Part shown: piece after piece, positions 10,811 to 31,440 of the stretch
How positions within the stretch are numbered: the stretch's first letter is position 1
Layout: each line of letters begins with the position of its first letter
IMG/VR virus record: IMGVR_UViG_3300042691_026724
Coordinates: 1-35,777 of that record
Direction: 5' to 3' (one strand)
Source of the DNA: a virus
Length of the DNA stretch: 35,777 nt
Translations under genes and position numbers: made by a program
Notes under the pieces: generated by a model
Databases searched by the model: none
Seen by the model: the letters and a program-made list of their open reading frames with translations, nothing else
What the model was told of the DNA's origin: nothing

Positions 10811-10886
10811 TGGCTCCCAGAGTAGGACTTGAACCTACGACCTAATCGTTAACAGCGATTTGCACTACCGACTGTGCTATCTGGGA
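10811..10886 (-). tRNA. tRNA-Asn (anticodon GUU), CCA encoded
   Basis: On the minus strand the sequence folds as a full cloverleaf: acceptor TCCCAGA with TCTGGGA, D-arm GCAC/GTGC with a GTCGGTA-type loop, anticodon stem AATCG/CGATT with loop CTGTTAA (anticodon GTT, Asn), T-arm GTAGG/CCTAC with TTCAAGT, discriminator G and encoded CCA. It overlaps the 3' end of the HNH gene on the same strand by 45 nt, so the HNH stop codon falls in the anticodon stem. Confidence 0.95.
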
Positions 10887-11282
10887 ATTGCGTTTCTTTC
10901 TTCTACCAGTTTTCCATCGCCATTCATTAACTTTTTTTACCGCTTCGGTTCTGCAAACATTACATCTGCATCCTTTTTTATAAAGAGAAACTCCGTGTTG
11001 TCCGCAATCTAAATCAACATATGTTTTCTTTTGATGGCAACTTCTGCATAAAATTTGGCATTTTTTTAATTCTTTTTTTCTTTTTTTTTCGCTTAATCCC
11101 CAAATAGCGGAAGATTTAACCGTTTGTTTATTTGTGTTTATTCTTGCAACTATGTGATCTATTTGAAGATTTTCATTGGACCCACAATTAGCACAAGGTC
11201 CATTTTCTAAAATGTATTGAGTTCTTCTTTTTTTATACAATTCGTTTTGATATTGGCGTCTTTTTTCACCGTAATAAGCCAT
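10842..11282 (-). CDS. HNH endonuclease, free-standing, 3' end overlaps tRNA-Asn
   Basis: The 146-residue product has a zinc-HNH core: Cys30 and Cys33 (CANC), Asp42-His43 (QIDHIVAR), then Cys79, Cys82 and His83 (CRSCH). A second Cys cluster (CRCNVCR, residues 105-111) heads a basic C-terminal tail, a layout common in phage free-standing HNH nucleases. Such genes are often mobile. Whether this one assists the capsid-gene introns or cuts elsewhere is unknown. The last 15 codons are read through the tRNA-Asn sequence and the stop lies within it. The start ATG lacks a visible ribosome site, and a hairpin plus T8 on the minus strand sits only a few bases upstream, which may limit expression. Confidence 0.8.
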   Translation of the reverse strand: MAYYGEKRRQYQNELYKKRRTQYILENGPCANCGSNENLQIDHIVARINTNKQTVKSSAIWGLSEKKRKKELKKCQILCRSCHQKKTYVDLDCGQHGVSLYKKGCRCNVCRTEAVKKVNEWRWKTGRRKKRNSQIAQSVVQIAVND

Positions 11283-20303: not shown

Positions 20304-21935
20304 ATGTCATTTTCAAGCACTCGACAAATTGGATTGCCCGCAGGCGGCTTAACTGGACAAGCATTAGTAAAACTTTCAAACAATGATTTTGACGTAGCTT
20401 GGGGTACAGGCACTGGCACTGGAGGCACTGTTTTAAGTGTTTTTGGTCGAACTGGTGTCGTTATTCCGCAAGCAGGTGATTACAATTCTGATTTAGTCAC
20501 TGAGCTTGGAGGTGCTAACAATTTATACTTCACAAACGCACGTGCGCGAGCTGTATTTAGTAATACTGCTCCTATAAATTACTCAGCTGGCGTTTATTCT
20601 ATTAGTTTAGCTAATACTTCTACAAATGGTTACATAAGCTCAACGGACTGGACGACTTTTAATAATAAAGGCACTGGAACTGTTTCAAGCGTAGGTTTAA
20701 CTGTTCCCTCTTGGTTAACTGTGAGTGCGGCCGTTACAAGCTCAGGCACTCTTGCGATCACAGCAACAAGTGGACAAACGGCTAATCAAGTTATGGCAAC
20801 CCCAGATAGTGCGACAGGTGCGATGTCGCTTCGATCACTTGTTGAAAATGATATTCCAAACTTAGATGCATCTAAAATCACTAGTGGATTTTTAAGTCCC
20901 GTATTGGGTGGTGCAGGTGTTCCGTTTTATGGAGACGGTAGTGATGGGGACGTGACAATCCCAGTAGGAACTACAGTGTCGCTTTCACGCGATATGTACT
21001 ATCGGAATTTAACTGTTTCAGGAAATAATACATTACTTTCACCAACTGGTTATCGAATTTTCGTTTCAGGAATTTTGGACACAACTAATTCAACAGGAAC
21101 AACAGGTATTGGACGAAGTGGTTCTGCTGGAGGAAATGCTTCGGGCGCTACTGGCGGAACTTCGGGTACAACTAGCACTTCTCAAACTATTGGAGGCGGA
21201 GGGGGCGGAACAGTAGGCCCAAGCGGCACTACAGGCGTAGGTGCCAATGGTGGCACTAGTCCCGGTCAATCTGCCACGTTAGGTGGGCGCGGTGGAATAG
21301 CTGGATCAGGCGGCGGACTCGGCGCAGTCGGCACAGCGGGAAATGTCTCGGGATCAGCGTCAGATAATAGAATGTCATTCTTTGATTTTAATTTATTACG
21401 TGGCGCTGCTCTTTATACTGGCGGCACAGGAAGCACGGCTGGAAGTGCAGGAACTGGAAATGGAGTTTCTGTTGCGGGCGGAGGAGGCGGAGGGGGATCG
21501 GCTGGTGGAATTGTTGCGATTTTTTGTAACATTTTAAAACGCGATAGCACAACGGTTGCAAACTTTTTTCGCGCAAACGGCGGTAATGGCGGGGCAGGGG
21601 GCAACGCAGTCGGTGGCGGAGGCGGAGGAGGTGCAGCTGGTGCAGGTGCTGGATGTATTTACATTGTTTATAATTCCCTTCAAGGTTCTACTGGCACAAA
21701 CATTTTGCAAGCTTCTGGCGGGGCAGGTGGAAATGGGGGCATAGGCAGTGCTGGTTATTTTGGGGGTGGTGGTGGTCAAGGCGGAAACGCAGGCCGTATT
21801 GTTTTAATTAACGCATCTACAGGTGTAGTCACTGAATACAACGGAACTACAGTAACAGCCGCAACTCCAGCAACTCCGACTGGCACGGCAGGCACTGCGG
21901 GCACTACCGGTGCTGTATTACAAGCCAGCTTATAA
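20304..21935 (+). CDS. Glycine-rich tail fibre / adhesin paralog 1 (543 aa)
   Basis: Residues 1-190 carry the shared N-terminal head (STRQIGLPAGGLTGQALVKL, then SVFGRTG, NLYFTNARARAVFS, TNGYISSTDWTTFNNKG), a virion-attachment or trimer region typical of phage side fibres. Then comes YGDGSDGDVTIPVG, a short beta region, and from about residue 270 a glycine-rich domain with runs such as GGGGGG, resembling the polyglycine receptor-binding head of T-even gp38-like adhesins. The product would bind host receptors. No ribosome site lies before the ATG and the preceding late motif suggests leaderless expression. Confidence 0.8.
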   Translation: MSFSSTRQIGLPAGGLTGQALVKLSNNDFDVAWGTGTGTGGTVLSVFGRTGVVIPQAGDYNSDLVTELGGANNLYFTNARARAVFSNTAPINYSAGVYSISLANTSTNGYISSTDWTTFNNKGTGTVSSVGLTVPSWLTVSAAVTSSGTLAITATSGQTANQVMATPDSATGAMSLRSLVENDIPNLDASKITSGFLSPVLGGAGVPFYGDGSDGDVTIPVGTTVSLSRDMYYRNLTVSGNNTLLSPTGYRIFVSGILDTTNSTGTTGIGRSGSAGGNASGATGGTSGTTSTSQTIGGGGGGTVGPSGTTGVGANGGTSPGQSATLGGRGGIAGSGGGLGAVGTAGNVSGSASDNRMSFFDFNLLRGAALYTGGTGSTAGSAGTGNGVSVAGGGGGGGSAGGIVAIFCNILKRDSTTVANFFRANGGNGGAGGNAVGGGGGGGAAGAGAGCIYIVYNSLQGSTGTNILQASGGAGGNGGIGSAGYFGGGGGQGGNAGRIVLINASTGVVTEYNGTTVTAATPATPTGTAGTAGTTGAVLQASL

Positions 21936-21947
21936 AAAGGAATTTAA

Positions 21948-23588
21948 ATGAGTTATTCAACTAACAAAGGACAACGAGTTACTGAAGGCGGTTTAGCTGG
22001 GCAAGTTTTAGTTAAAGCTTCTAATACTGATTACGATACAACATGGATAAACAATAGCGGAATTATTAACTCTGTTTTTGGTCGTATTGGAGCAGTTATA
22101 GGAAATTACGGCGATTATAATTCAGCGCAAGTCACACAAGGTGCAACGAATCTTTATTTTACAAATGCTCTTGCTCAAGCTGCAATCAGTGTCACATCAC
22201 CTTTAGCTTATTCATCTGGGAATATAACTATTCCTCAAGCAAACGGATCAACTAATGGTTATTTATCAAGTTCTGATTGGATAACTTTTAATTCCAAAAG
22301 TAATGCTACTGTTACAAATATCGCCATGACTGTTCCTGCATTTTTTGCAGTCACAGGAACTCCCATTACAACTGGAAGTGGGACTTTTGCAATTACATCT
22401 GCATCTGGATTAGTTGCTAACTCAGTACTTGCCACACCCAATGGATCAACTGGAGCTGTGTCAGTACGCGCACTTGTTGCAGCTGACATTCCAAACATTA
22501 GTGCTGCTAAAATTACAACAGGAGTTTTATCGCCTGCCGTGGGTGGTGCTATTATGGGTTTCTTCGGTGACGGAAGTGACGGAGATTTAATTATCAATTC
22601 AGGAATTACGACGCTCCTACGCGATATGTTTTACAATAATGTCACTATCAGCGGCAGTGCTGTACTTTTACCAAACTCTTATAAAATTTTTGTAGCTGGC
22701 ACTTTAGATTTAACAAATGCACCTGCAAACGCAATTAATAGAAATCCTGCTGCTGGCGGAAATGCTTCGGGCGCGACAGGTGGATCTGGTATAGGAACAG
22801 TAGGTACAAACACAGTTGGAGGTTCGGCAGGTACCACTGGCGGAACAGCAGGCGGAACGGGTGTGACAGGAGCAGGAGCCCAAACTCAAGCAACTGCAAT
22901 TACTACTCAAGTAACTTCTTTAGGTGGCAGTAATGGTCAATCAGGCGGCGGTGGAACATCGACAGGTTCGCAAAACTCACGCGCTCAAGTTCTTTCTCAA
23001 ATAAATAGTTATTACAGAGTCGATCATCAAATACTTCGTGGCGGAGCTCTTTTTACAGGCGGCTTATCCGCAGCAGGAGGGACCTCCGGGGCAGGTGATG
23101 GGACAAACGCAGGTGCGGGTGGTGGCGGCGGTAGCGCAGGCGGCGGAGTAATTTGTATCTTTGCTAAAACGATTGCGCGAGACACAACAACTGCCGCTGG
23201 TTGTATTTCTGCAAAAGGCGGACAAGGCGGCAACGGAGCTGCTTCAACTCTAGGCACTACAGGTGGTGGTGGAGGAGCGGGCGGTTCAGGCGGCGGAGTA
23301 GTTATTATTTACTACGCTCAACTAACTGGAAATGTCGCAACTAACGCCATAGACGTTTCGGGCGGTGCAGGCGGCAACGGAGGCAACTCAATTTCTGCGA
23401 CTCGAAGTGCTGGCCAAGGTGGACAAGGCGGCAGTGGTGGCAGAATTTTGTTATTTGACGTCACTATTGGAACAATTACAGAAGTAAACGGAACAAGAAC
23501 ACATGCGGCTGTTCCTCCGGTTATTGCGGCTGGTAACCAAGTAGGCGGCACTGGAACAACGGGTACACAAACTCAATCGGAATTATAA
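21948..23588 (+). CDS. Glycine-rich tail fibre / adhesin paralog 2 (546 aa)
   Basis: AAAAAGGAATTTAA precedes the ATG. Domain order is as in paralog 1: TNKGQRVTEGGLAGQVLVKA head, SVFGRIGAV, NLYFTNALAQA, SSSDWITFNSK, a FFGDGSDGDLII linker, then a Gly-rich receptor domain with LRGGALFTGG. The C-terminus GTGTTGTQTQSEL differs from the GTAGTAGT ends of the other two. The three copies lie in tandem, so exchange between them could reshuffle receptor range. Confidence 0.8.
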   Translation: MSYSTNKGQRVTEGGLAGQVLVKASNTDYDTTWINNSGIINSVFGRIGAVIGNYGDYNSAQVTQGATNLYFTNALAQAAISVTSPLAYSSGNITIPQANGSTNGYLSSSDWITFNSKSNATVTNIAMTVPAFFAVTGTPITTGSGTFAITSASGLVANSVLATPNGSTGAVSVRALVAADIPNISAAKITTGVLSPAVGGAIMGFFGDGSDGDLIINSGITTLLRDMFYNNVTISGSAVLLPNSYKIFVAGTLDLTNAPANAINRNPAAGGNASGATGGSGIGTVGTNTVGGSAGTTGGTAGGTGVTGAGAQTQATAITTQVTSLGGSNGQSGGGGTSTGSQNSRAQVLSQINSYYRVDHQILRGGALFTGGLSAAGGTSGAGDGTNAGAGGGGGSAGGGVICIFAKTIARDTTTAAGCISAKGGQGGNGAASTLGTTGGGGGAGGSGGGVVIIYYAQLTGNVATNAIDVSGGAGGNGGNSISATRSAGQGGQGGSGGRILLFDVTIGTITEVNGTRTHAAVPPVIAAGNQVGGTGTTGTQTQSEL

Positions 23589-23599
23589 GGAAATTTAAA

Positions 23600-25225
23600 A
23601 TGAGCATATCTACAAACAGAGCCTTAGGTATTCCGGCAGGTGGTCTAACAGGTCAAGTTTTAGCAAAAGCTGGAAACAACAATTATGATTTTACATGGAT
23701 ACCGGGCACTGGTTCGCCTGTTACATCTGTGTTTGGCAGAACTGCCGCGGTTGTTGCTGTTGCTGGTGATTACAATACCGATCAAATTATAGAAACAAGT
23801 AATTTGTATTTTACTAATGCTAGAACTTTAGCAGCTGTCACAGCATCAAGTCCTTTAACTTTAAGCTCGGGAAATTTAAGCATTACACAAGCAAGTGCAA
23901 CAAGTAACGGTTACTTATCATCTACCGATTGGAACACTTTTAATAATAAAGGTGCTGGAAATATAACAAGCGTAGATGTTTCTGTTCCTGCATTTTTATC
24001 TGTATCAAATAATCCTGTTACAAGTAGCGGAACTATTGCGATTACAGCAAGTGACAATCAATTAGCTAATCAAGTTCTTGCTACACCAGATGCAACTACA
24101 GGAACATTGTCACTTCGTTCTCTTGTGGCAAACGATATTCCAAACTTAAGTGCTGCAAAAATAACCTACGGAGTTTTGAGTATGAATCAAGGTGGATCTC
24201 CTCGTCCACCGTATTACGGTCTTGGACAGCTTGGAGATGTCACAATAAATTCGGGCACTATAACTTTGACCGATGACTATTATGTAAATAATTTAACTAT
24301 TTCTGGAACTGGAAGTATTAACACAGGTGGGTATCGTATATTTGTCGCTGGCACTTTGGATTTAACCAATGCTCCCGTTGAAGCAATAACTAGAAACGGA
24401 ACAGTTGGAAACGCAGGAACGGGTGCTTCAGGCGGTGCTGTAGTTGGTGCACCATCAACAGGAAGTGTAGGATCAGCGTTTTCTTCTGTAATTGGAGGAA
24501 ACTCAGGCACAGGTGCGGGCACAGCTGGTGGTAACTCAGCTTATGGAAGTATTGCTTTAGGAGGCCAAGGAGGTGCAGGCGGAAGTGGCGGTGCTCCTGC
24601 TCTTGCAGCAGGCGCTGCGGGAGGTTCAACAACTTCAAACGCAAACGTAGTTCCATTTCGGCGCTTTGATTTTAATATAATTCGTGGTGCTAGTTTAATG
24701 ACAGGAGCAGGAGCAGGTGCTTCGGGAGGTGGAGCAAACGGCGACGGAGTAAACAATGGCGGCGGTGGTGGATCAGGTTCAACCGGTGCTTGTATGATTT
24801 ATATTGCGTGTAACATTTTAAAACGCGACACTACAACTGCGGCAGCTGCAATTCGTGCAAATGGATTAACTGCAGGTGCAGGAGCAAACTCAAGTGGAGG
24901 TAATTCAGGTGGAGGCGGTGGTGCGGGTGGAGGCGGAGGAGGTTTTGTCTATCTGGCTTATTCAACTTTAGAAGGAAATCCTGCTACAAATTTAATTCAA
25001 GTAAATGGGGGTGCAGGAGGTGCAGGGGGTAATGGCACTGGAACTGGTCGCGGCGGACAAGGTGGTAGGGGGGGTGCCGGAGGTCGTGTGTGTTTAGTAA
25101 ACATGTCGACTGGTGTTATTACAGAAACTCAAAGCACCACAACTATTGGCGCGGCTGCTACAACTCCTACAACAACTGCTGGCACGGCAGGCACTGCGGG
25201 AACAATTTTACAAGTAACTTTATAA
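23600..25225 (+). CDS. Glycine-rich tail fibre / adhesin paralog 3 (541 aa)
   Basis: AAGGAAATTTAAA precedes the ATG. Head region (STNRALGIPAGGLTGQVLAK, SVFGRTAAV, NLYFTNARTLA, SSTDWNTFNNKG) is closest in feel to paralog 1, while the linker PYYGLGQLGDVTI and the Gly-rich tip (AGAGASGGGANGDG ... GGGGGAGGGGGGF) are distinct. The same C-terminal GTAGTAGT motif appears as in paralog 1. Role: receptor recognition. The tips differ from one another much more than the head domains. Confidence 0.8.
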   Translation: MSISTNRALGIPAGGLTGQVLAKAGNNNYDFTWIPGTGSPVTSVFGRTAAVVAVAGDYNTDQIIETSNLYFTNARTLAAVTASSPLTLSSGNLSITQASATSNGYLSSTDWNTFNNKGAGNITSVDVSVPAFLSVSNNPVTSSGTIAITASDNQLANQVLATPDATTGTLSLRSLVANDIPNLSAAKITYGVLSMNQGGSPRPPYYGLGQLGDVTINSGTITLTDDYYVNNLTISGTGSINTGGYRIFVAGTLDLTNAPVEAITRNGTVGNAGTGASGGAVVGAPSTGSVGSAFSSVIGGNSGTGAGTAGGNSAYGSIALGGQGGAGGSGGAPALAAGAAGGSTTSNANVVPFRRFDFNIIRGASLMTGAGAGASGGGANGDGVNNGGGGGSGSTGACMIYIACNILKRDTTTAAAAIRANGLTAGAGANSSGGNSGGGGGAGGGGGGFVYLAYSTLEGNPATNLIQVNGGAGGAGGNGTGTGRGGQGGRGGAGGRVCLVNMSTGVITETQSTTTIGAAATTPTTTAGTAGTAGTILQVTL

Positions 25226-29284: not shown

Positions 29285-31210
29285 ATGGCTGTTTATGCAA
29301 ACGTATCGAACCAGGTAGCTGCACTCAAAGAGTTGTACACTGGTGACGATTATTTAAAAGATCTTGTTTATAAGAAAAATCCTTAAAGATAGGGTCGTTG
29401 CATAGAAATATGTAAACGAGAATTCTCTCTGATTGACTTGGAAGTCCGGAAGCGGACAACAGGGGCCAAGGGTAAAGCTAGGCTGAACGACTAAGTGAGA
29501 GAACATCCCACAGGGATGATGCGATAGTCTGAACAACCCTATAACAAAAGAAGGGGTTGAGGGAGATCCGAAGAGATCGCCCCCATCAAAAGATGAGTAA
29601 CAAAATGTTTCTTGCACTTGTTCCAAAGGATGAAAGTCCTTCTGGTTTTGCTGGTAAGTACATTCCCGTACCTATCATTTATGGCACAGGCCAAGGTCGA
29701 TCTCACACTTTTTCAAATGCGCAAAACCAACAAACTGCACCCGCAGACGTTGCGTTCTTCGTATACAGAATTAGTGACTATCAACTCGTAACCATCACCA
29801 ACGAACTTCTTGAAGCGACAAAAGATAATGCTGGCGCTTTCATTGACCAAGCTAAACTCAACTTGGACACAGGTTTTAGAAACATTTCTAACAACTTGGC
29901 TCAAAACTTGTTTGCTTCTGGAACTGGATCACGCGGTCAAATCGGAAGCATTGTTAAGTCTGGAAGTTCAACTGCTACAACCATCACTTTGATTAACTCT
30001 GCGCAAGTTGTGCAATTTGAAGTTGGTATGTTGCTTGTTGTTTCTGCGACTGACGGAAGCGCACCTTCATCTGATACAGTTCAATTAACTGCGGTTAACC
30101 GCTCAACTGGCGTATTGACTGGTGTTTCTTCTACCACTCTTGCAAGTTCACTCTCTGCTAACTGGGCAGCTAACGGCTACCTCTATGTTAACGGAGATAT
30201 CGGGGCTTCTGGAGCTTCTGGAACAGGCAGCTACTTGGCTGTTTCTGGTCTTGCAGCTTGGCTCCCGTTGACTGCTCCTTCTTCTGGAGATTCTTTCTGG
30301 AACGTTGACCGATCAGTAGATCCTACTCGTTTGGGTGGTGTTCGTTTTGACGGATCAAGTGAAACAATCGAAGAAGCCCTCATAGACGCTAAACTTTGTG
30401 GCGTCTTTAAACTTTCTCTAATTGACTTGGAAACCGGACACGGCAACAAGGCGCAAGCGATTGTTATCGCAGCGTGAACGACTAAGTGAGAAAGCCCTTT
30501 AATTAGGGATGCGATAGTCTGAACTCGGAATATAGAAAGAAAATCCGAGAGAGAGATCCGAAGAGGTTTCTCCCGCTAGAAATAGCGAGTAACAAATTGG
30601 CAGCATTAGTAGCTCGAGAAGGTGGACAACCCGACATGTGCTTCACAAACTTTGCATCATATGCAGCGCTTGTGAAAGCTCTTGGATCAAAAGTACAATA
30701 CGTACAAGTTAAGCATGACGAATGTGAAATCGGCTGGGCTGGTATCACTATCCATGCAGCATACGGTCCAATCACTGTTATCCCTGATCGCAACTGTCCT
30801 GCTCAAGTAGCGTACTTGCTTTCTATGGATACATGGAAATTCCGTTCACTTGGAAAAGCTCCTCACATCTTGACCTACGGTCTTGAAGGTTTGGAAGGTA
30901 TCCGTGTTGGAAATGCAGACGCTAAATTTTGTGGCGTCTTTAAACTTTCTCTAATTGACTTGGAAGCCCGACAGGGTAACAGGGCGCAAGCGTAATTGCA
31001 GCGTGAACGACTAAGTGAGAAAGCCCTTTAATTGGGGATGCGATAGTCTGAACTCGGAATATAGAAAGAAAATCCGAGAGAGAAATCCGAAGAGGTTTCT
31101 CCCGCTAGAAATAGCGAGTAACAAAATTGCTCGAAATTCGTATCGGTTACTACGGCAACTTGATATGTAACGCACCAGGCTGGAACTGTGTTGTTCAATT
31201 ATCTCAATAA
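29285..31210 (+). CDS. Major capsid protein, spliced gene of four exons (428 aa)
   Basis: Exons: 29285-29383 (33 codons), 29608-30390 (261), 30600-30923 (108) and 31130-31210 (26 plus stop). Every exon boundary falls between codons. Joined, the protein runs ...DLVYKKNP | FLALVPKDESPSGFAGKYIP ... EEALIDA | AALVAREGG ... GIRVGNADA | LEIRIGYYGNLICNAPGW...VVQLSQ. The NPFLALVPK block across junction 1 is a family signature, and the EALIDA and NADA ends join sensibly. GNISNNLAQNLFASG-like text (NISNNLAQNLFASGTGSRGQ) and YGPITVIPDRNCP belong to the HK97-fold capsid family. Without splicing, exon 1 would stop after 33 codons and the gene would appear as fragments. A purine-rich AAGTAGGT precedes the ATG. 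Splice sites are inferred from intron structure and protein continuity. Confidence 0.9.
29384..29607 (+). ncRNA. Group I intron 1 in the major capsid gene (224 nt, no ORF)
   Basis: Core elements are visible: P3 TTCTCTC (29423) with GAGAGAA (29497), P7 GACTA (29489) with TAGTC (29525), P8 CATCCC (29504) with GGGATG (29513), P9 AACCC (29535) with GGGTT (29554) and a further hairpin GATC/GATC. The P5 hairpin GTCCG-GAAG-CGGAC and a CTTGG/CCAAG pair lie between. The 5' splice site follows U29383 (exon end CCU), which can pair with GGG at 29392-29394 and gives the expected terminal U-G, though this P1 is short. The 3' end is G29607. No endonuclease ORF is present. It differs from introns 2 and 3, sharing only the core. 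Confidence 0.9.
30391..30599 (+). ncRNA. Group I intron 2 in the major capsid gene (209 nt, no ORF)
   Basis: P1 is excellent: exon end AGACGCU pairs with the intron guide GGCGUCU (30400-30406) over seven pairs ending in the required U-G at the splice site. P3 is CTTTCTC (30412) with GAGAAAG (30488); P7 is GACTA (30480) with TAGTC (30515); P8 is CCCT (30495) with AGGG (30505); P9 is CTCGGA with TCCGAG. The terminal G is 30599. It is nearly identical to intron 3 apart from about a dozen changes, mostly in the P5-P6 region. No ORF. Confidence 0.94.
30924..31129 (+). ncRNA. Group I intron 3 in the major capsid gene (206 nt, no ORF)
   Basis: A copy of intron 2 with the same guide GGCGUCU, pairing with exon end AGACGCU at 30917-30923. 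The P8 change A to G (AGGG to GGGG) keeps pairing as U-G, and differences cluster in the peripheral P5-P6 region, so the fold is preserved. P3, P7 and P9 are intact. The terminal G is 31129. Exon 4 begins CTCGAAATT. The identical guide and target sites point to copying by reverse splicing or ectopic insertion. Confidence 0.94.
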
Positions 31211-31246
31211 TTAGTGTAATAATTATTAGCTAGTTCATGAGGTAAA

Positions 31247-31278
31247 GGTCGGGAATCGAAAGATTCTCGGCCTTTTTT
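31247..31278 (+). terminator. Rho-independent terminator after the capsid gene
   Basis: GGTCGGGAATC (31247-31257) pairs with GATTCTCGGCC (31262-31272) over 11 bp (two G-U) around a GAAA tetraloop, followed by six Ts (31273-31278). It ends the portal-scaffold-capsid transcript. Confidence 0.92.
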
Positions 31279-31440
31279 ATTTGTTTTTGTTAAACTTTGT
31301 TGTTAAATCGATTACAGCGAATAAAATGCACCGTCACTAGAAACTAATGTAGTCCCCTAGTGACACTGCAGGCTTAACACCGAGCTTGTAGAATCATTAT
31401 TTGTGGCTCGTAGAACAAGACTGCGAGTCACACTCCTAAA
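31279..31440. other. Gene-free stretch with hairpins between capsid terminator and late promoter 6
   Basis: GTCACTAG (31333-31340) pairs with CTAGTGAC (31357-31364), and GTGGCTCG (31403-31410) with CGAGTCAC (31424-31431, one G-U). No gene, tRNA or protein frame fits. It could be a small RNA or a silent spacer. Nothing more is seen. Confidence 0.35.

Follow-up and report, generated by a model that had tools for sequence, protein, structure and literature searches.

Introduction

The major capsid protein (MCP) gene of crAss-like Zeta is interrupted by four inserts (PMC7886860, 2021), and splicing of the capsid intron of mycobacteriophage LittleE has been shown by RT-PCR in a paper that also cites a capsid-gene group I intron in lactococcal Tuc2009 (PMC3706429). 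The gut Jug phages have about 18 introns per genome with an average length of about 206 nt, and 37 of 76 tested predictions were seen spliced in metatranscriptomes (PMC12363816). Because of the crAss-like, LittleE and Jug precedents, a capsid gene with three introns is not new in kind; it is unusual but known, and multi-intron capsid genes have been described already.

Here we describe such a gene in a 35,777-base IMG/VR virus record, a metagenome assembly that we refer to over its full length as the window. The window shares with crAss-like Zeta, LittleE and Tuc2009 the presence of group I introns within the major capsid gene. It differs from them in having three small introns without ORFs that belong to one subfamily, two of them near-identical and using one guide, and in coming from an SU10-like podovirus lineage. 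The Jug phage introns are also small, and very frequent in those phages, but they belong to other phages and other genes (terL, nrdD), and the mini-inserts that we describe below in relatives of the window were not found in the available part of that paper.

Results

The capsid gene of the window

The frame of the capsid gene at 29285-31210 (plus strand) is broken three times, and removal of three intervals leaves a single open frame of 428 codons. This had been proposed in a first-pass annotation made from the sequence alone, and it stands: the exons, of 99, 783, 324 and 78 nt plus the stop, are all whole codons and join in frame, and the NPFLALVPK signature said to be restored at the first junction is present in the spliced frame. 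The predicted 428-aa protein matches PF17236, the SU10 major capsid protein family, over residues 261-379 (33.2 bits, E=5e-8, cut-off 24.1). Upstream of the capsid gene there is a portal gene of SU10 type (PF23899), and also a gene that probably encodes the scaffold. The features of the gene, all on the plus strand, are as follows.

29285..29383, plus strand, capsid exon 1, 33 codons (homology to intact capsid proteins)
29384..29607, plus strand, group I intron 1, 224 nt, no ORF, site NP|F (core, covariance-model match, exact empty sites)
29423..29429, plus strand, intron 1 P3 5' strand, partner 29497-29503
29489..29493, plus strand, intron 1 P7 5' strand GACTA, partner TAGTC 29525-29529
29504..29518, plus strand, intron 1 P8 hairpin
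29608..30390, plus strand, capsid exon 2, 261 codons
30391..30599, plus strand, group I intron 2, 209 nt, no ORF, P1 GACGCU/GGCGUC (covariance-model match, exact empty site)
30412..30418, plus strand, intron 2 P3 5' strand, partner 30488-30494
30480..30484, plus strand, intron 2 P7 5' strand, partner 30515-30519
30495..30508, plus strand, intron 2 P8 hairpin
30600..30923, plus strand, capsid exon 3, 108 codons
30924..31129, plus strand, group I intron 3, 206 nt, no ORF (covariance-model match, exact empty site)
30945..30951, plus strand, intron 3 P3 5' strand, partner 31017-31023
31009..31013, plus strand, intron 3 P7 5' strand, partner 31044-31048
31024..31037, plus strand, intron 3 P8 hairpin
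31130..31210, plus strand, capsid exon 4, 26 codons and stop
31244..31283, plus strand, terminator-like hairpin and T run 3' of the capsid gene (consensus match only)

Searches with the MCP gave no match among GenBank phages (tblastn) or among PDB sequences, and no relative in bacterial genomes, because of which no host is assigned. Elsewhere in the window there is a free-standing HNH endonuclease gene (PHROG 4234) at 10811-11282 on the minus strand, whose 3' end overlaps a tRNA-Asn gene. At 20304-25225 three similar glycine-rich ORFs, each of about 541-546 aa, follow one another in tandem; their N-termini are related, and they are probably tail fibre paralogues.

Structure of the three introns

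Each of the three intervals contains P7 GACTA/TAGTC, P3, P8 and a terminal G and encodes no endonuclease, as first annotated; each also has P4 and P6, and none holds any other ORF. In all three the 5' exon ends in a U that is paired to a G in P1, and the last base of the intron is a G. P1 is weak in intron 1, with 3-4 bp (CCU/GGG plus one intron-side U-A pair), and is 6-7 bp long in introns 2 and 3 (GACGCU with GGCGUC). P10 spans 6 positions in intron 1 and 4 in intron 2, with none contiguous in intron 3. Given the weak P1 of intron 1 and the poor P10 of intron 3, poor splicing of either is possible.

The group I assignment is carried by the splice-site rules above, by empty sites in relatives, by the restored SU10_MCP-family protein and by covariation in the core. 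We aligned 48 cores from the window introns, other viral contigs and two GenBank phages, naming the helices P3, P4, P5, P6, P7 (the pseudoknot) and P8. In this alignment 95.3% of cells are paired and 17 of the 31 pairs show two-sided changes, P7 being invariant; slid controls reached at most 48% paired and at most 51 cells with two-sided changes, against 226 observed. A covariance-model search had been suggested as a check. With a model built from the 48 cores, introns 1-3 score 115.6, 110.8 and 109.7 bits and are the only matches in the window; since these introns were training members, the covariation is a stronger argument than the scores. With Rfam all three fall below threshold: Intron_gpI matched only intron 1, at 20.7 bits (E=0.02), below its gathering score, and at gathering threshold nothing but a tRNA was found across the window.

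Introns 2 and 3 are 94.6% identical, have the same guide and each directly follow GACGCT. Probably one of the two was copied from the other into a second site with GACGCT, plausibly by reverse splicing or by recombination. Joining of exon 2 to exon 4 may also occur; it is predicted to drop 108 residues and to stay in frame, because both junctions are in phase.

Empty sites and exchange among relatives

Uninterrupted sequence at exactly the junctions of introns 1-3 is found in two close relatives, G001 and G002, and also in loci L006 and L023, and capsid homologues in IMG/VR are mostly uninterrupted. The alternative that the capsid gene is a decaying pseudogene, or that the breaks are assembly errors, would draw on a frame broken three times in metagenome assemblies. 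This we consider extremely improbable: each break is accounted for by an entire intron whose core covaries, the flanking exons join precisely in frame and still align to intact homologues, exact empty sites exist and the pattern recurs at other loci. We are instead highly confident that the capsid gene of this SU10-like phage has three self-splicing group I introns, all belonging to one subfamily. In each intron a guanosine bound in P7 would attack after the U of the U.G pair in P1, and the freed exon would then attack after the terminal G of the intron. Three such splicings would give the mRNA for the 428-aa capsid protein, a step that we infer from the observed architecture.

Against G002, exon 2 of the capsid gene is 93-95% identical and most flanks are 77-79% identical, and against G001 the capsid exons are about 90% and the flanks about 77% identical. 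The comparison, at 29607-30922, suggests an exchange centred on the intron-rich capsid gene, although conservation of the capsid may contribute to the contrast. Neither G001 (L004) nor G002 has the introns of the window in its capsid gene, but both have another, longer one at capsid codon 20, which in L004 holds an HNH-like ORF (by eye).

A survey of capsid homologues gathered by viral-sequence searches, in which a splice-aware dynamic programme aligned each interrupted gene to a relative without interruptions, covered 183 distinct homologous loci: 127 intact, 46 with full introns and 10 partial or uninformative. No introns with group I ends were found in the portal, scaffold, adaptor and 31553 genes of the same loci. 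The intron hot spot of this SU10-like phage group is the capsid gene; the neighbouring structural genes checked are not hot spots. The first-pass annotation had called three small introns in one capsid gene uncommon, which puts their rarity too strongly given the four-insert capsid gene published in 2021, the 46 of 183 loci with full introns and the 18-base core string GTGAACGACTAAGTGAGA, which occurs in at least 119 viral stretches. The unrelated P22-like coat family of freshwater podoviruses (L084, L091, L109, L148, L160, L167 and others) has up to three introns of the window's subfamily; its query was a composite of segments of relatives and was used only to find loci. Related unannotated introns are also present in the split P22-like coat gene of podovirus ctn9Y15 (MW202674) and in Roseobacter phage CRP-118 (L085, OR420741.1, near locus position 2501), where the intron separates two ribonucleotide reductase ORFs. 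Both are of the same subfamily as the window's introns, with 74-78% DNA identity over the core, and differ in lying in other host genes as single introns. CRP-118 is an isolate, and its intron therefore offers a way to test splicing.

Mini-inserts in related capsid genes

Mini-inserts of 30-59 nt are present in 33 of the 46 full-intron loci, which include L045/L369, L076/L243, L077/L244, L079/L336, L080/L221, L254, L264, L259, L308, L345 and L343. They occupy several sites along the capsid gene, some of which are also full-intron sites; the intron 1 site of the window, for example, holds a mini-insert in L243, L260 and L274. Several recur in contigs from different samples, and the survey loci are environmental assemblies that are not independent of one another. 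A filter for a U.G pair, a terminal G and enough guide pairing was passed by 36 mini-inserts. One further example, at codon 46 of L294, was called with a shifted boundary and stands outside the 36. A 25-nt call in L245 has neither U.G nor P10 and was not counted. An apparent 26-nt mini-insert at coat codon 35 of L109 was not counted either, as it looks like an 11-nt frame-breaking insertion without guide features; it lies upstream of a full intron and is possibly an assembly error.

The scored mini-inserts follow a U that pairs with a G of the guide, the 3' side of the guide pairs with the 5' exon (P1), its 5' side pairs with the 3' exon (P10) and the last base is a G. Because the U.G pair, the final G and the placement of the boundaries were used in selection, the pairing was compared against nulls. 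For 16 mini-inserts the mean guide score was 29 with their own exons and 8 with the exons of other sites. Under the same boundary optimisation the mini-inserts averaged 40.3 and shuffled inserts 24.5 (sd 3.5), with 32 of 36 scoring above all 60 shuffles. The remaining 4 share a common site, where a bulge of one base, which the score disallows, seems necessary for P1. Exon and guide also covary at shared sites, as at DD|KE, where the exon reads AAAGAA, AAAGAG or AAGGAA with matching changes in the guide; one group mixing unrelated sites was left out of this comparison. About 91% of P10 cells are paired.

An in-frame stop is present in 36 of 36. As an alternative to splicing, the mini-inserts might be skipped by translational bypassing, as in T4 gene 60 (PMC5009743). 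The length is similar (the T4 gap is 50 nt), there is a hairpin at the 5' junction and neighbouring introns have endonuclease-like ORFs. We nevertheless regard bypassing as very unlikely: matched take-off and landing codons are found in 0 of 36, a codon is split by 10 of 36, and the pairing of P10 to the 3' exon, which bypassing does not need, is maintained and covaries with the exon.

The mini-inserts are without a P3-P8 core of their own, as 30-59 nt leave no room for one after P1 and P10. The tails that follow the guide are mostly about 12-25 nt long, and those of 12-16 nt cannot hold a P7. We looked in the tails for a shared motif or for pairing with the downstream core and found nothing above controls, as would be expected if they are mere spacers.

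Mini-inserts and their neighbouring introns

The mini-inserts keep to genes that have a full intron: they occur in 33 of 46 such genes and in 0 of 127 intact genes (Fisher p about 3e-25, a value inflated by relatedness). A full intron lies 21-303 nt downstream of 35 of the 36, and the remaining one, at codon 414 of L343, has a core of the window type about 32 nt further on, past the aligned end. In genes with a single full intron the mini-insert is upstream of it in 22 of 22. Either of the two observed core types follows the rule, as do introns that are not long enough to encode an endonuclease. It reappears in the P22-like coat family, where L148 and L113 have mini-inserts of 41 and 34 nt at codon 40 and a full intron at codon 51, with matching changes in P10 (AGGTG/CACCT and AGGAG/CTCCT).

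These counts bear on whether the mini-inserts could be autonomous minimal group I introns, like the fungal rDNA introns of 63-75 nt, whose fold would be completed by the adjacent exon. In vitro splicing is reported for a fungal intron of 67 nt that has P1, P7 and P10 (PMC3160393). The phage mini-inserts are 30-59 nt long, most of their tails are too short for P7 and the rest, and no mini-insert occurs in a gene without a full intron, which makes autonomy quite unlikely.

The position rule alone is not proof of a shared core, because homing at the DNA level could also give nearness, through co-conversion with a mobile intron or protection of its target. Many of the full introns next to mini-inserts are 600-870 nt long and those read in detail hold HNH-like ORFs (by eye), distances of 21-303 nt are within a plausible co-conversion tract and the capsid region looks recombined in near relatives. 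Several partner introns, however, are only about 200-250 nt long and too short for an endonuclease ORF (L244, L259, L264, L274, L308, L254), and homing accounts neither for the removal of an insert without a core from an essential mRNA nor for the preservation of P1 and P10. We think it unlikely that homing without a shared core explains the pattern.

Discussion

The mini-inserts of these relatives and of the P22-like coat family have the architecture of an intron guide, restore the frame on removal, are without a core and keep to one position relative to a full intron. That they are removed by splicing, and that the neighbour's core is the agent, is probable from these features. The reading that we favour, with fair but not high confidence, is that they are guide-only group I introns spliced by the core of the downstream full intron in the same transcript. 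Such an intron would be made up of P1 and P10, an unconstrained spacer and a G at its end, and one ribozyme would serve two introns, which we hold to be somewhat likelier than not to be the case. The downstream core would dock the P1 of the mini-intron and split it at the U.G pair, then take its terminal G and join the exons along P10. It would then remove its own intron, and its action on the mini-intron could take place in cis or after its own release.

For the window the practical consequence is that standard annotation would give broken capsid fragments, which is to be expected because the Rfam model misses introns 1-3 at its cut-off. More generally, short frame-breaking inserts in phage genes may be introns and not errors. 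We found no report of core-less phage introns in open-access papers. If the shared-core reading is true, these would be, to our knowledge, the first natural case of group I introns stripped down to their guides and served by a common catalyst. Among group I introns they would then parallel the step at which introns came to rely on a shared catalyst. It would also become testable how introns lose a catalyst of their own, a loss proposed for spliceosomal introns, and whether the 50-nt bypass gap of T4 began as a degenerate group I intron. The system, with about 35 nt plus a 200-nt intron, is small enough to be rebuilt in vitro.

Two known systems are close to the proposed arrangement. The minimal group I introns of Phialophora and Arthonia rDNA are 56-81 nt long (PMC3160393) and are like the phage mini-inserts in being very short and in keeping P10 and a P1 with a G.U pair. 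They keep P7 and end in U, whereas the phage mini-inserts have G as their last base, are too short to accommodate P7 and are always accompanied by a full intron nearby. Engineered group I spliceozymes tolerate a wide range of intron interiors (PMC4094466), and as in the system proposed here a core-less intron is taken out by a single core through pairing at both splice sites. The phage system, if it works as proposed, would be their natural counterpart, with the difference that spliceozymes are engineered, act in trans and have the guide in the ribozyme, whereas in the phages the guide lies in the mini-intron.
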